In this document: positions 7,021 to 61,648 of the stretch, in pieces
Layout of the letters: each line of letters starts with the position of its first letter
How positions within the stretch are numbered: the first letter of the stretch is position 1
Assembly: GCF_000003815.2 (NCBI RefSeq)
Contig: NC_049984.1
Span: forward strand, 9,612,440 to 9,676,439
DNA: 64,000 nt
Origin: Branchiostoma floridae
Taxonomy: Eukaryota > Chordata > Leptocardii > Amphioxiformes > Branchiostomatidae
Direction: 5' to 3'
Notes under the pieces: generated by a model
What the model was told of the DNA's origin: nothing
Database searches by the model: none
Seen by the model: only the letters and a program-made list of their open reading frames with translations
Program-made: the position numbers and the translations under genes

Positions 7021-7684
7021 GCAGCGAACTAGGTTAGCAGAAGAACGCAAGTCATCATGGCTGGTGCGGGACCAACGGCTGTTCTGAGTTCTGGAAAGAA
7101 AATGCCACTTTTGGGGCTAGGAACATGGCAGGTGCGTATTGGTATTCTACACCCAGGGAATGACTTCTACTGGTGATCGTCCCTGTCCAGTCGTTAAGCT
7201 GTCCTTTTCCCACAAAACAGTTTTCGTCTTCTAGTTTCTTTCGATTTTCCGAAGTGCCATAAAGCCGCCTTCCCCCGGCCTCAACAATCTAGCTTTTAAA
7301 AACTTCCTCCGTGCTTTATGGTAAATCAAGGACATTGTGACGTCAAATGTAGGCACCTCGTTTAAAAAGAATCACCAGCACGACTTCTAGACGGTTTCGA
7401 GCTGTTCAATATATAGGAATACTTTAAGTTAGATTTACTATCGACTGTGCGGCCTGAACATCCAACATCAATCCTTGCACCCTCAGATGCACAGGCCAGA
7501 CTAAGCCCTCACACCTTCTTGTCTTTCCCTACGCACATGATCTCTGAGACAAATGATATTATGGATACGTATGATTTGCAGTTTGTATAGTATTATCCAT
7601 GGTTCATCTGTACTGCATCTGGTTGCAGTTTACAATTCAAACTGTAGAACAAGCAATTCTGTTCGTTTGATTTTTCAATCCTCC

Positions 7685-30005: not shown

Positions 30006-33000
30006 TCAAGTAAATCCGTCTAATGCTATCGCTTCTCTTACAAAGACCTTGATCGAGCCCACGCGACGATTCTTGATCCAACAGGTATAAATAGTCCCGT
30101 CCTGTTTCTGAAGGTCATGTATGTGGAGGGAGTTCACAATGTCTACAAAGACTCTTCCCTTGGTAGTCCTCTTTAGCTCCGTCTCTGTGAGGACCGCGCT
30201 CCCGTTCTTCCAGCTGACCGGGCTGTCCATACCTTCCCCGGGACACGATAGTGTAATGTTTTCCCCTGTCTTCCCGAAAATGCTTTTCTTACTGGTGATA
30301 GTGGGAAGCGTGGGGCGATTCAAGTTTCCTCTTCCTAGATTCAGCACTGACTCCACTATACGGCCACTGGAGTCGGTTACAGCAAGGCTCTGGTCTAACA
30401 GCGAGAAATAAAAATACAGCACTTTAAATATAGACTTCCTTCCATCAATATTTTGTGAAAGCAAAGTATCAAACACATTTCCGTGAAAAGTTTCATCGGG
30501 TTGGTACGTCACTAGTACTGAATGTTTGTGACCGCATCTGAACTGTGAGCAGCGACACCTGTGCTGCAGTACAATGTGAACCAGTCAGAATTGTCTTGAA
30601 GAAGGTGACAAACGGTCGCAGAAACGTTGTTTTATTCAATATTCTATTGTTACACGTGATGTCGGTTCACAGTAGTGGCGAGATATTGGACATTCTGAAA
30701 CATGGAGCACTTCAAGACCTTACAAAAAAAAACTTACAAAACAAAACGGGGTATAGATTTAAATACATCATTGTGTTTTCATAACCGTCTAACTGCAGTG
30801 GCTAGGAATAAAATCTACACCAGGGGTTCATTCATGTCTCCCTTGGGAATTTCAGTGCAGAGTACTGTCTGGCAAACCTTACATGAATTCGGACTGACAA
30901 GTTTCCGACAAACATAACATAACGGAAGCTCGTTGCCCAGTGTCATTCAGTTCAGGCTGCCAATTTTTCCACCAAACCTTACATTACGGAAGTGGTCAAT
31001 TAGGACCAGGTCCTGCTGGGTCCCGTTGCCTGTCCACTATCTCGAGCTGCCAATTTTTCTACCAAATCTTACATTACGGAAGTGGTCCCGGTAAGGTTTG
31101 GTGGAAAAACTTGGTTGCGTGTGTCTTGTTAAGAATGGCCACCTGTAGCTGTGCTAATGCCGTTATGTAAGGTTTGCTTGAAGACTCGGCGTCCCTCTTG
31201 TGTCAGGATGGCGTGTGTCCCTTAGGACTGTGTAAGGTTTTGGAAAAAGGGTTGATGGAAATGTGTATACTGTCCCAGCCCAGACATCATGAAATTCAAG
31301 TACCTGATTGGCATGTAAGGTGTATTGTGTTGCAAAAATCGTTGAATTCCCTTGGGTGCAATATCATTCTATGTTAGGTTTTCTGTTAGGTTTGGAAAGG
31401 CCAAATGTTCCACAATGTCCAATTTCTTGCGAGTTCAGCACCAAGGTCAGTACCAAAAAGAAAGTCAATTCTTCTTTGACCTTCTACCAGAATGGCAAGG
31501 TACAAGATGACTCACCTATCGGGCAGGGCTCGGTACAGAACTCTACCCTCCTCTCATCAGGGCGGCGGATTTCGTAGAAGGGTATCGTGTGTCCAGGACG
31601 GCGGATTTCTTCGCCAAATACCTCTCGAGCGAAAGAGGGAAGGTTCTCGGAGTCACAGGCGAAGACTTTGCGCGTGCCTAAGTGCTCGGGAAAGTTTTCG
31701 CTCTCGACGTGACAAATCCCTGTTGAAATTAAAACAATCCGTTATAGCTCTTGGAATTAGATAATGTCACTTATACACTAGACACAGTTATATTTCACAA
31801 AGTAGATTTTTCCATCCTTTTGTCGTTTGAATAGATATTTGTAAACAAAACAAGCGCGTCTAACCAAGGAGGTTAAAAAACGGATTTTTAACCTCCTTGG
31901 TCTAACTAAAGGAGGGGTCTGATTATTTTGGAAATGCCATAAATCTTCTTACATATAGCATTTTGTGTTTCTGAAGACTACTGACAGGTATATATATATA
32001 TCTACAATCTTTACTACCTCCTTGATAATGAGCCAGTTATATCCCTCGGAAAGCAATATAGTAAGGCTAAAGTCACATTTCCACAAAGGGGCCGGGCCGG
32101 GCAGTTCGGGGGAACGAAATGTGCGGCATAAAAGACAACAAAGACACAAACGGACCACAGATAATTCAACAGCATGCCTTATGCATATTTATTGGCATAA
32201 ACTTAAATTTTTCGTTTCCGCAATCTGCCCGGCCGGGCCCCGGGTAGGATGTGTGACGTAGGCCTAACACGTGACGTGTACGTACCAATCCTGGCGCGTT
32301 CTCCGGACCCGCCACACCTGTTACACTGTCCCCATGGCGACCATAAGCTAAACATCGTCATCTCTGCCGCTGTTCTGTTCGGCAGGGGGTTCTCACTGAG
32401 AGCCACCAGACTTAGCCTGACACCAGACTTAGCCGGTTTGACCGTCAAATCGTAAGAAACTAGAAGTCTCTCTCTAGATGTGTCTCTGCAGTAGTATATG
32501 CCGCTGTCGGTTACCTGCACAAAAAATATCAACTATAAGCTAAGCCTGTTTTTTTTTTCAAAACTAAGACATGCTTGAAGCTGCTTACACACTGAACTTT
32601 TAAGTACTAGCGGTAATGTAAATGAAGTCTAAACAGTCGTAAGACATCGATCTCTGCTCTAGGCAACGGAAAATCGGGTTTCCGGACGGGTAACGTTGTC
32701 TCCTGTATATTCCAGTATATGGCTCACGACTGCTACGAACTTCGCGAAGTACACTAAATGCTTATCAACATCACATTTCCAAACCGGGGCCCAGCCGGGC
32801 TATTTGTGGAAACGAAAATGTATACGTCAAAATATACACAAATAATGCCCATGACTATTATCTTTACGTCTTGTGTAGTTTGGTGTCTTTATATCATACA
32901 TTGTGTTCTCGAAAGCTGTCTGGCCGGGCCCCGGTTTCAAAATGTAACGTAGGCCTTAGCCGCGTTCGTATTACAGATAACAATGCTGTAACGATGCAAA

Positions 33001-55937: not shown

Positions 55938-55958
55938 ATGCCTGTCCTTGGTGCTGAA
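55938..55958 (-). promoter_or_regulatory. RE1/NRSE-like motif A
   Basis: Minus strand reads TTCAGCACCAAGGACAG then GCAT: both half-sites (TTCAGCACC, GGACAG) and the 2-bp spacing of the REST/NRSF recognition element are exact. Surrounding bases also resemble site C, so it may be an old duplicate. Confidence 0.6.
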
Positions 55959-56208
55959 TGCACCATCAATACAAAATTCAGTGGTTACTGTGATAGGACT
56001 TATTGAATGTACTAATGTAGAGATCAGAAAATATAGCAACCTTTTTACAGGCGTTTTCCTAATTGGGCCTAGACATTTCGACCAATGAGCATCATTGATG
56101 CTAAGACGAAAGGATGTAGCCGTCACGCGGCTCTAAAGCACCGCCTAACGGCTAAAAGTATAATTGCAGAAAACTGCACCGAACATCGGTAAATATTACT
56201 TACACACG

Positions 56209-56220
56209 CACGCACACACG

Positions 56221-56252
<32 letters not shown>
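56209..56252. repeat. (CA)n microsatellite
   Basis: CACACA run with CGCACA interruptions immediately left of the inverted duplication. Confidence 0.9.
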
Positions 56253-56253
<1 letters not shown>

Positions 56254-56535
56254 TGGTCGATTTCAGAGACTGTGATTGGCTCCCGGAGTTCAGTTAATAA
56301 AAGATTATTGTGACGACAAAAGAGCATTCAAGGGGTACATTCATTGCTTTAATGCATTGTTCCCTTAGCCAATCAGGAAGTCCGTCTGGTGATTGTTGCT
56401 ATCAGCCGATCAGCTTCCACCTAGTGCGTTTTGCTCTTGATCTTGGGACTGTAGTTCTTTTTCAGAAATGAAGGATGAGAGCCCACGTAGGGGACGACTT
56501 AACCTTAGGTTGTAAGTGTGTGAACAGATAGCGCG

Positions 56536-56556
56536 ATCAGCACCAAGGACAGAGTG
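56536..56556 (+). promoter_or_regulatory. RE1/NRSE-like motif B
   Basis: ATCAGCACCAAGGACAG then AGTG: only the first base differs from the common TTCAGCACC left half; right half GGACAG exact. It is in the left arm of the inverted duplication. Confidence 0.6.
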
Positions 56557-57496
56557 TCCACTGTCCAGGTTAGGTGTTGAAAAATAAAAGATAACAGACA
56601 CGTTCACTACTTATAAACAAACGGTGGTAGAAACAAATTTACTGTCCGTATCCCTTGTCATTGTCCGATTAGTTACAGTCAAACACACACGTACAGTGAT
56701 AAAAAAACACTAACACAGTCACGAAAACATAACATTTTATCGAAGGTCATAAAGTTTAAAATTTGCTTACGTTTCGAAAGCCACAGCCTTCTCTGTCATT
56801 TTATAATGCACAAAGTACCTACATGGTTGCACTGGGCAGCTTCTGTAGGTGTGAAACCGTGCAGACGTTATGTAGGTCTGTGGTCTTTTTGCTGCACGAC
56901 AGGTTCTGTTGTTTACAACCGTGCTACTCGAACGATAATGCCATAATGGAGCTGCTCTAGTCGAACACCAGGGTTACGTCAGGTCATCGAATGAGAACCC
57001 TGGTGATGGGTGATGTTAGAACAAGCATTCTTATGTTTCTAGTTCCCTAATGACTTGCGGTGATGACGCAGGTGTTCTTACCTGTTCCAAAGAGCATTCT
57101 AGAACTAACCGTTGAAAATGGAGGTGATTTCGTGTGTTGTGAAGATGCATGTATTTGTTATCTCTGCAACGTTATTGCGTTTCACCGCTTTTCATGTCTC
57201 CATACCACCATAACGCGTTAACTTCGATAGTGACAGATGCATGGGAAATTCTACGTTGAACTTCTTTAACTCCCTGTCATTTGTGGAGCTCCACCGTCAC
57301 TTTATTACCATCACCAAGTAGGTACTGCTTTCTTGGCTGTGTGAGTAATATTGTTTAGTGTGTTTTAAATGTAACTATTAAATCACACAACTAAAAGGGA
57401 TAAGGACAGTTAAGTTGTGTCTACCACCGTTTGTTTACAAGTAACGTACGTATCGCTCATGTATTATACTTCTCAACACCGTCCACGCAGCATGTA

Positions 57497-57517
57497 CAGT
57501 CTGTCCTTGGTGCTGAA
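57497..57517 (-). promoter_or_regulatory. RE1/NRSE-like motif C
   Basis: Minus strand reads TTCAGCACCAAGGACAG then ACTG, an exact match to both RE1 half-sites. It is about 475-495 bp upstream of the predicted transcription start of the CBM48-like gene. Confidence 0.65.
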
Positions 57518-57767
57518 CGCACTATCTGTTCACAACAGCCATGATCTAAGGTTAAGTCGTCCCAGGTGTAGGCTGAAAAAGAAACCATTTCCTTTTCTTC
57601 AGAGCAAAACGCACTATAGGTGGAAGCTGAACAGCTAATAGTAATCATCACCAGCCGGGCATCCTTATTGGCTAAATGAAGAATGGGTGAAAACAATAAA
57701 ACTTACTCCTATCACCAATGCTCTTTGTCGTCACAGAAATCTTTAAGTGATGTCATATTTCCGTGAG

Positions 57768-57994
57768 CCAATCACAGTCCCTGACAATCAACCAATAGCA
57801 GCGTTGGGTTTCGGAGTGCAGTGTGCACTAAACTAGATACCTGTTGTATTGACCAATCAGGATTAAGCAATTAAACGGCCCCAGCCAATCAGATCCTGGA
57901 TCGGTGCATGTCAGAGCGCCCTGCCCGTCTTCCATTGTTCTCCAGTGCACCAAAAGGTATAAAAGGCGGGCAAAATCGCCATTCACTATCAGTC
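57768..57994 (+). promoter_or_regulatory. Core promoter of the CBM48-like gene: four CCAAT boxes, TATA, Inr
   Basis: CCAAT on the plus strand at 57768, 57792, 57853 and 57885; TATAAAAG at 57958-57965; initiator TCAGTC with A at 57991, 33 bp downstream of the TATA start. The coding start is at 58095. Several CCAAT boxes at fixed spacings suggest NF-Y control. All elements are read directly; usage is inferred. Confidence 0.75.
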
Positions 57995-58094: not shown

Positions 58095-61000
58095 ATGACG
58101 AGCCAAGAAAACACCACGGGAACGCCTAGCTACCAATATGGCGACTCCATCTCCAAGGTGAGTTACGATTTCGTGTCCTCCCGAGAAATTTGTTATATTT
58201 TTTGTAGTTTGTTTGTTTGTTTGTTTGTTTTGGATCACCATTAGTGATACTAAATGAAGTGTCACTATTCTTCCTGGTGACCTAATGCCGATATGGCTTA
58301 TCGATTAACAACATGAATATTGGACGAGGCCGACCGAAGTATTCTCTACTATGGTAACGTTACGGTTTGGTACTGTTAGTTTAAATGTAACATATTCGTT
58401 TTGGAGAAAAAAATGTAATTTATTTTACCATGTATGTATGCAATAAGGAACGGACAGATATTTTTTAACTTAGGCCACAGCAAGTAAATTTTATGGATGA
58501 CATCCGCGCGCTCACTAATTTTCGCCTGATTTCAGAAAAAAAAAACAAGAATTTTTTTCTTCTTCAGGGAAGGCCAGATAGACGAAAATGGGTAAAGGTT
58601 GTGTTGTAACCAAATTATTGAATGTAGAATTGACACTAGAGACTCTGTAGCATTGACTGTAGTTGCAGAAGTGAAACTTGATAGATAGTTGTAAGAGTGG
58701 CAGAACTATGGAAGCTATGAGTGTAGTTGCCAACATGGTTAATGATACCAGTCTACCACACTAGTGTCACTTTAACTACACTGGTGCACTTCTTAAATAC
58801 AGGAATGAATGCCTTGTTGGCTGTGATGCCATATTTTGTCACTTCAAGTCTTGTTACAACGTCTATTTTAAAAATTTGCCATCTTGTTTTTTTTACCCAT
58901 CTTGTGTTTTTTTTCGCCCTATCTTATTATTTTTGCAGTCTGCAGAGGATGTCATCCATAGAATTTACTTGCTGTGGCCTTACTGAGTGTTGAGAAAAAT
59001 GATAAGAGCTTGAGTAGGACCATCCTTCATATTTATAGCTAAGAGGAAACGAAACGGCGGCTATAATATGTTATGTTACTTTAAGTGAATCATGCGAATA
59101 ATTATGCCATAATCTAACTCAACATTTCCTCCCCACAGACGGTGTTGGCCAATAAGGCGCCCACCCGGGTCCTGGTGAAGCTCGTGTTTACTTTGGTTGG
59201 AGTGGTCGAAGGGATTGTGGAGGTATTCGGGAGCTGGAACGGATGGAGCGAAGGAAAGAAATTGGAGGAGAGGTAAGACTACTACTTGTGTTTCTACCAC
59301 TTGTCACTAGATAAACAAACGCATTGATCACTAATATTGTCAATTGTTTTCCCTTATCTTATCTTCATGCGGATTTGCTTTAAAATAGCATGTAAATTTA
59401 ATGCGGATTTGCTCCAGAATACTAGGCGAATGCAACATTCTAAGCCACAATCTAAATCTACGACAGTACATTATGCTCTTTACTGTTAACAGAGTCAACA
59501 TCTCTTTCACATTTACAAAACTGTAATATCTTTGATATTGTCCATACTTATATCCATTGTACAGGTAGATTCTTAATTGATTCAGCATCTAAACTTACCT
59601 TTCTGTTATCCGTTTTGTATGAATGTATGTATGTATGTATGTATGTTGTTTACTACTCTTGTTTTATGCTTATGTTTTTGAGTAGAAGGCTTTATATAAG
59701 CAAATTGTGCTTTTTGTCTGATACTCACAAAATATATGTGAATAAAATAAAATAAGCCACAATACTGACGAGTACATGTTGTATTTCCAGGGACGGCAAG
59801 CTGACCGTGGCCATTGATGTCCGCCCGGGGCGGTACGAGTTTAAGTACCGTAAAGCAGACGGAGAGTGGTTTCACGATAATGACCAGGTAAGACAACTGC
59901 TTCAGTATGTAAACTTCAATCCGTTTCTTGACATACCAACATCTATAGTGTTTACTGTATGATACTAGTTCAAAATATGCAACCCTAATCTCGAACATAT
60001 TCATATATGATGTCAAACGATCTAATAAGATGGTTGCATTTTCTTTCGTCTTTAAATGTATATGTATCCTTAAGTTGGTCTTTATTGCCTCCCTTTTTAG
60101 GACACGATCCCAAATGCCTTTGGGACCTACAACAACGTTGTGGAGGTGACTTGCGAGCACAGCATCCCTCAGGAGAAGGAGGCTGAAGACACCCCCGGCT
60201 GTCACGATACTGATGCCGGGCCTGAGGACGCTGCTGCCCCGGAAGTGCCTGAGGACAGCACTGCCCCGGCAGTACCTGTGGCGGACTCTGTTGCCGAAGT
60301 GCCCGAGGACAACGCTGTCCCGGCCGTGCCCGCATCTGTTGCCGAAGTGCCTCAGGACAACGCTGCCCCGGCCGTGCCCGCATCTGCTGCCGAAGTGCCC
60401 GAGGACAACGCTGCCCCGGCCGTGCCCGCATCTGCTGCCGAAGTGCCCGAGGACAACGCTGCCCCGGCCGTACCCGCATCTGCTGCCGAAGTGCCCGAGG
60501 ACAACGCTGCTCCGGCCGTGCCCGCATCTGCTGCCAAAGTGCCCGAGGACAACGCTGCCCCGGCCGTGCCCGCATCTGCTGCCGAAGTGCCCGAGGACAA
60601 CGCTGCCCCGGCCGTGCCCGCATCTGCTGCCGAAGTGCCCGAGGACAACGCTGCCCCGGCCGTGCCCGCATCTGCTGCCGAAGTGCCCGAGGACAACGCT
60701 GCCCCGGCCGTGCCCGCATCTGCTGCCGAAGTGCCCGAGGACAACGCTGCCCCGGCCGTGCCCGCATCTGCTGCCGAAGTGCCCGAGGACAACGCTGCCC
60801 CGGCCGTGCCCGCATCTGCTGCCGAAGTGCCCGAGGACAACGCTGCCCCGGCCGTGCCCGCATCTGCTGCCGAAGTGCCCGAGGACAACGCTGTCCCGGC
60901 CGTGCCCGCATCTGCTGCCGAAGTGCCCGAGGACAACGCTGCCCCGGCCGTGCCCGCATCTGCTGCCGAAGTGCCCGAGGACAACGCTGCCCCGGCCGTG

Positions 61001-61648
61001 CCCGCATCTGCTGCCGAAGTGCCCGAGGACAACGCTGCCCCGGCCGTGCCCGCATCTGCTGCCGAAGTGCCCGAGGACAACGCTGCCCCGGCCGTGCCCG
61101 CATCTGCTGCCGAAGTGCCCGAGGACAACGCTGTCCCGGCCGTGCCCGCATCTGCTGCCGAAGTGCCCGAGGACAACGCTGCCCCGGCCGTGCCCGCATC
61201 TGCTGCCGAAGTGCCCGAGGACAACGCTGCCCCGGCCGTAGCTGCATCTGCTGCCGAAGTGCCTAAAGACAACGCTGCCCCAGCCATACCCGCATCTGGC
61301 GCCGAAGTGCCTGAGGACAACGCTGCCCCGGCCGTAGCTGCATCTGCTGCCGAAGTGCCTAAAGACAACGCTGCCCCAGCCATACCCGCATCTGGCGCCG
61401 AAGTGTCTGAGGACGACGCTGCCCCGGCCGTGCCCGCATCTGCTGCCGAAGTGCCTGAGGACAACGCTGCTAGTGAGCCAAAGAGCCAGGACAGAGAGGT
61501 CACCCACAAAGCTTCCCGCTTCCAAGCACTTAAGTTTTGGAAGAGGAAGTCCTCCACGGCTCAGCAAAAGGCGAAAAAGTCAGGCTGCAGCAGCAGGAAG
61601 TGGAGCATCGTCCGTGGACTCCGCAAGATCCTGCGTTGGAGGCACTGA
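58095..61648 (+). CDS. CBM48-like glycogen/starch-binding-domain protein with 16-aa repeat array
   Basis: Exons: 58095-58157, 59139-59272, 59791-59887, 60101-61648; 613 aa. Residues about 40-120 form an E-set/CBM48-like fold as in the AMPK beta subunit: VEVFGSWNGWSEG, VAIDVRPGRYEFKYRKADGEWFHD, then GTYNNVVEV with the conserved Asn-Asn. No catalytic domain follows. From about residue 160 a 16-residue unit (AEVPEDNAAPAVPASA) repeats 24 times, acidic and Pro/Ala-rich, probably extended and disordered. The last about 60 residues switch to Lys/Arg/Trp-rich (FWKRKSS, GLRKILRWRH), giving strong charge asymmetry and possible membrane, actin or nucleic acid contact. A strong TATA promoter precedes the gene and AATAAA at 62193 follows. 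Binding to glycogen is inference from the fold. Confidence 0.85.
58473..58979 (+). mobile_element. PIF/Harbinger-type MITE, copy B (507 bp)
   Basis: Same family as 34515-35000, opposite orientation. Ends GGCCACAGCAAGTAAATTTT and, reversed, GGCCACAGCAAGTAAATTCT; TTA target duplication at 58470-58472 and 58980-58982. In intron 1 of the CBM48-like gene. Confidence 0.9.
60290..61470 (+). repeat. 48-bp coding minisatellite, 24 full units plus a partial
   Basis: Unit GCCGAAGTGCCCGAGGACAA.. (48 bp, 16 codons), from 60290 to 61441 plus a partial unit to 61470. Central units are almost identical at the DNA level; edges are diverged. The last part shows a 96-bp higher-order period (PKDNAAPAIPASG alternating with PEDNAAPAVAASA). 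Several other reading frames stay open through the array, including long antisense ones. Confidence 0.98.

Follow-up and report, generated by a model that had tools for sequence, protein, structure and literature searches.

Putative RE1/NRSE repressor sites in large number and a REST-like zinc-finger gene in the genome of the lancelet Branchiostoma floridae

The window analysed here is a stretch of 64,000 nucleotides from the lancelet Branchiostoma floridae (RefSeq assembly GCF_000003815.2, contig NC_049984.1, positions 9,612,440 to 9,676,439 of the forward strand). Its recognised neighbours by Pfam are a Kelch/BACK gene at 49.9-53.3 kb and carboxylesterase exons at 62.9-63.9 kb, neither of which is, to our knowledge, a REST target. 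A preliminary description of this DNA had reported three RE1/NRSE (REST) motifs next to a CBM48-like gene. The gene was not supported, as Pfam detected no CBM48 domain in the 10 open reading frames of the window that were scanned, but all three motifs were recovered with both half-sites, the left half TTCAGCACC and the right half GGACAG, at a spacing of 2 bases, two of them exact and one with a single mismatch. Copy 1 is an exact core, TTCAGCACCAAGGACAG, at 55942..55958 on the minus strand; copy 2, at 56536..56552 on the plus strand, has an A for the first T (ATCAGCACCAAGGACAG); and copy 3, again exact, lies at 57501..57517 on the minus strand. The start given earlier for copy 2 was correct, while those for the other two, 55938 and 57497, were off by 4 bases, and the two sites are on the minus strand. 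The motif scan also detected a fourth core that had been missed before, at 31434..31450 on the plus strand, with one mismatch (TTCAGCACCAAGGTCAG). The vertebrate 21-mer ends in a 3' GCGCC, which none of the three clustered motifs has. With up to 3 mismatches allowed, the window holds 5 RE1 matches against 0.28 expected (none of 100 shuffles reached 5), and with the spacer left free it holds 6 against 1.43. Other repeats in the window include a perfect 17-base inverted repeat with a 5-base loop at 31863-31901 and a 48-bp repeat in 24.7 copies at 60287-61470, inside an open frame of 515 codons (60101-61645) that matches no Pfam family.

Copies 2 and 3 occupy mirror positions in the two arms of a long, diverged inverted repeat, identified by alignment and genome search, with its left arm at approximately 56220..56754 and its right arm at approximately 57300..57826. 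The arms are 69% identical with gaps counted and 77% identical over ungapped columns. When 404 bases of the right arm (57381-57784) were compared with the whole genome, only two matches were obtained, the query itself and the left arm (71% identical). Copy 1 sits in a short, diverged relative of the surroundings of copy 3, with about 63 aligned columns in common. Since copies 2 and 3 lie in paired arms and copy 1 is related to copy 3, the three represent one duplicated site, and three independent sites in the window are ruled out by this local duplication. Within the arms, special conservation of the RE1 stretch was not seen: among 542 windows 17 columns wide, 42 were conserved equally or better. 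Another inverted repeat of the window, at 58472-58505 and 58947-58980, has 34-base arms that are 97% complementary and 441 bases apart.

Across the 513 Mb genome, the exact core TTCAGCACCnnGGACAG (TTCAGCACCNNGGACAG) occurs at 7,427 places, 3,462 forward and 3,965 reverse, and its reversed control at one. With one mismatch allowed, the totals are 16,728 cores and 22 in the control. The earlier judgement that the motif is an RE1 core unlikely to arise by chance is thus borne out by shuffles in the window and by the reversed control in the genome; chance matching is refuted as an explanation, and we give it virtually no probability. The window has 2 exact sites and 4 with at most one mismatch, compared with the 0.93 and 2.1 per 64 kb to be expected from the genome totals. 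Because the density in the genome is close to that of the window, the window is ordinary for this genome and the cluster, originally singled out as special, is a set of local duplicates near the genome average. Among the first 100 exact sites listed there are 44 clusters under a 500-bp rule, which corresponds to an estimate of about 3,270 separate loci if the start of contig C1 is typical.

The 2-base spacing is almost exclusive, with 7,427 exact sites against 212 for spacings 3-20 together (control 3). Of the first 100 cases listed at these larger spacings, 81 are canonical sites (at most 2 mismatches) with an additional GGACAG or an additional site, and 19, including 7 at gaps 7-9, lack a canonical partner. 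Expanded spacings were considered as an extra REST signature and set aside, the unexplained cases among those listed being too few.

A scan with the pattern TCAGCACCNNGGACAG and one mismatch gave 19,050 sites genome-wide, against 81 in the control. The same scan of zebrafish Zv9 is given as 1,102 sites in the excerpted text of PMC3531662. By this one pattern, the lancelet has about 17 times the number of sites and, if the zebrafish genome is taken as 1.41 Gb, about 48 times the density. The vertebrate form of the site resembles the lancelet form in having both half-sites, a fixed 2-base spacing and a variable spacer, with a core as in zebrafish (TCAGCACCnnGGACAG; PMC3531662, in excerpt), whereas the 3' GCGCC is nearly absent here, as the vertebrate 21-mer ending in GCGCC occurs at 9 sites genome-wide, and a G is favoured directly after the core. 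Many of the putative lancelet sites also differ in standing in arrays. The missing GCGCC does not disqualify the lancelet motif as an RE1, since in zebrafish a 16-base core lacking it was enough to suppress a reporter outside neurons (PMC3531662, in excerpt).

The preliminary description had proposed looking for a REST-like zinc-finger gene in amphioxus, and one is present, a further likeness to the vertebrate system. A 79-residue human REST query had its top hit at C4:20317697-20317924, with 55% identity over 76 residues, and the gene scores 28.2 bits with Pfam zf-C2H2_REST (cut-off 27). An identity to human this low would argue against a jawed-vertebrate origin. The exon contains FDRKVNYEAHKRTH, SSQKTHLNRH and ANQHEIVRHVRQV. 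In the recognition helices of fingers 4-6, 17 of 24 positions equal those of human REST, and the next best of the 258 three-finger windows examined has 10 of 24. An open frame after this exon starts with finger 7, beginning TADRS as in human REST, and reaches a 100-N assembly gap that takes up parts of fingers 7-8; a further finger, CDFCGRFFTDRDIWEQHVQRH, ends an open frame downstream. Upstream fingers on the same strand may belong to the same gene. The exon was not listed for a 200-residue human REST query, for which 150 of 4,260 candidates were scored, and a PDB search with the exon returned no REST entry among the 60 matches listed. Taken together, the genome is predicted to encode a REST-like zinc-finger protein with matching recognition helices.

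In vertebrate REST, a separate C-terminal finger binds CoREST. A query with the human C-terminal finger had one hit only, which fell not in the REST-like gene but in a second multi-finger gene 64 kb away (G000:C4:20245200-20255204; L083, L082), whose last finger, CIYCDRSFTDKNMWTQHISRH, resembles the REST C-terminal finger. The recognition helices of this second gene are different, and none of its windows is among the best 8 by REST helix match.

Since a REST-like protein occurs together with the site and its grammar in one genome, REST binding is the simplest explanation of the motifs. Vertebrate REST recruits corepressors and silences nearby genes outside neurons. By analogy, the finger array of the lancelet protein would read the two half-sites at their fixed 2-base spacing, and the bound protein would draw in corepressors and prevent the expression of neighbouring genes in non-neuronal cells. 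From the match of site and fingers we infer that the REST-like protein would bind the RE1 sites, with silencing as the likely outcome. The motifs are therefore best described, in our assessment, as probable RE1/NRSE cores, putative sites for a REST-type repressor encoded in the same genome and parts of a REST/RE1 silencer code that appears greatly expanded.

The surroundings of the sites were compared in 40 loci, all from contig C1 at 0.4-8.7 Mb and containing 42 of the 44 clusters mentioned above. One exact site per locus and one from the window gave a set of 41, in which columns -40 to -1 and +17 to +56 were examined. Only two of these columns reached p<1e-4, with a G at +17 in 22 of the 41 loci and an A at -33 in 26, and the others were at background. 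The A at -33 was also seen in 9 of 13 sites of loci L061-L069, but in only 7 of 17 one-mismatch sites. Addition of the nine loci with the 21-mer gave a set of 50, whose mean flank identity was 15.9 of 60 against 15.3 of 60 for shifted flanks; an upstream CAGCA was commoner in this set than expected (15 of 50 loci against 5.0). The spacer varied as well: in the 41 loci its first base is A in 34 (not A in 7, 17%) and its second in 21 (not A in 20, 49%). Genome-wide, the ratio of one-mismatch to exact cores (9,301 to 7,427) corresponds to a change of 7.7% per core position if decay is even, which is below both spacer bases.

Changes within the core are unevenly placed. A degenerate form of the RE1 consensus is NTYAGMRCCNNRGMSAG; the core positions that are degenerate in a vertebrate RE1 consensus are 1, 3, 6, 7, 12, 14 and 15. 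Outside arrays, in 34 loci, these seven positions account for 14 of the 16 single changes (p=0.0009), and in 10 of the 16 the new base is one that the vertebrate consensus permits. Within arrays, the same positions take 25 of the 35 changes (p=0.003); the most frequent change there, C to T at position 6 (10 of 35), is outside the consensus. A set of 15 bases kept while flanks and spacer vary is unlike a decaying repeat, and from the dispersed sites we infer, on indirect evidence, that selection probably keeps the RE1 core. The core would be kept in this way while flanks and spacer change in the course of duplication and minisatellite growth.

How the sites multiplied bears on whether they need any regulatory reading. 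Mammalian L2 and ERV copies carry RE1. Spread of RE1 assisted by transposable elements has been reported (PMC4499139, in excerpt), and the lancelet likewise has a binding site multiplied across its genome, although the sampled sites here have no common element around them. The preliminary description had named high copy number simply as part of a transposon family, together with no conservation at orthologous loci and no RE1-binding factor, as the outcome that would refute its reading. The copy number is indeed high (7,427), and occurrence on both strands fits such a family, but the flank columns of the 41 loci are almost uninformative, the window arm has no genome match beyond itself and its partner, and BLASTN among the 50 loci with the core masked found 2 of 1,225 pairs similar in register with the motif (22 other pairs were similar elsewhere). 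For the loci sampled on contig C1, a single motif-carrying family is by now mostly refuted as the source, and we regard it as highly improbable. A more local origin has more in its favour. The core could have arisen incidentally from the turnover of minisatellites and local duplicates, in which a 43-bp unit was copied and its old flanks were lost, with no regulatory role. The copies in the window arose by local duplication, clusters of at least 3 within 500 bp take in 61 of the first 100 exact sites listed, and the best flank pairs among the 50 loci belong to a minisatellite-like group of seven (L011, L015, L020, L027, L032, L034 and L048) that have parts of a 43-bp flank in common. Moreover, spacer and core change alike in six arrays, at 15 of 224 positions (6.7%) and 108 of 1,678 (6.4%), against 320 of 3,010 (10.6%) for the rest of the unit; the comparison is significant singly in 2 of the 6 arrays, which were picked for containing exact cores. 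Against this explanation, most sampled loci have no common flank, and decay that erased the flanks would erase the 15-base core too. The arrays are also of more than one kind: by Tandem Repeats Finder, the units are 43 bp in L015, L034, L048 and L032, but 40 bp in L009, 51 bp in L046 and 24/47 bp in L038, and these others have different sequence. Minisatellites of the type described by Jeffreys have unrelated units with one short core in common, and the unrelated units here likewise carry one short core; the difference is that this core is a known repressor site and is found in single dispersed copies as well. Nor would turnover explain why a genome that has a REST-like gene should carry a motif equal to the vertebrate RE1, and we consider this origin improbable.

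A further alternative accepts binding and questions its purpose. The sites might be bound by the REST-like protein, or another of the same specificity, mainly for chromatin organisation or the silencing of repeats and not for the repression of neuronal genes. The number of sites exceeds the needs of a neuronal gene set, arrays are common, and the second zinc-finger gene with its REST-like last finger lies 64 kb from the first. The one neuronal-type gene examined also has no close site: the Pfam stathmin family has 3 matches in the genome, and no RE1 site with up to 2 mismatches was found in the stathmin-type loci (L085, L086 and L087) or in the 9.9 kb upstream (L089), a search that covers one gene only. 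The closest RE1 known lies about 30 kb upstream (L088 2206-2240, G000:C2:12702806-12702840) and is double, with two exact tandem cores 18 bp apart. A single gene is, however, no test of targeting, and the fingers of the second gene mismatch the REST recognition helices. We hold this role to be unlikely.

Most accounts of REST present it as a repressor of vertebrates. The lamprey shows an enrichment of REST-NRSF motifs in one class of accessible regions within introns, according to the excerpted text of PMC6795873, and the words REST and NRSF are absent from the main text of the amphioxus regulatory paper PMC6292497. In the open-access literature, a scope outside which subscription papers mostly fall, we came across no paper describing RE1 sites from a lancelet. 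Clustered RE1s had been expected to bear on the age of the network in an invertebrate chordate; it is the exact core and the REST-like gene that do so, whereas the cluster itself is ordinary for the genome.

Overall, this lancelet has come to carry over 7,000 exact RE1 cores at roughly 3,000 distinct loci, an expansion in which local duplication and the growth of minisatellites had a part. Judged by site and fingers, the silencing code looks older than vertebrates, and its expansion here looks far greater than in fish. More speculatively, and as a reading that we think unlikely, the roughly 3,000 loci may form no modest neuronal silencer but a genome-wide system in which single RE1s repeatedly founded minisatellite arrays whose every unit kept the site, with REST acting as a chromatin organiser or repeat silencer and the neuronal role of vertebrates being narrower, later or reduced. 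Thousands of near-identical sites in unrelated sequence offer a natural case of binding-site multiplication without a transposon. The lancelet genome suggests that the exact site code, together with the finger helices predicted to read it, predates the vertebrates, and the age and first role of the REST network become testable in the lancelet.
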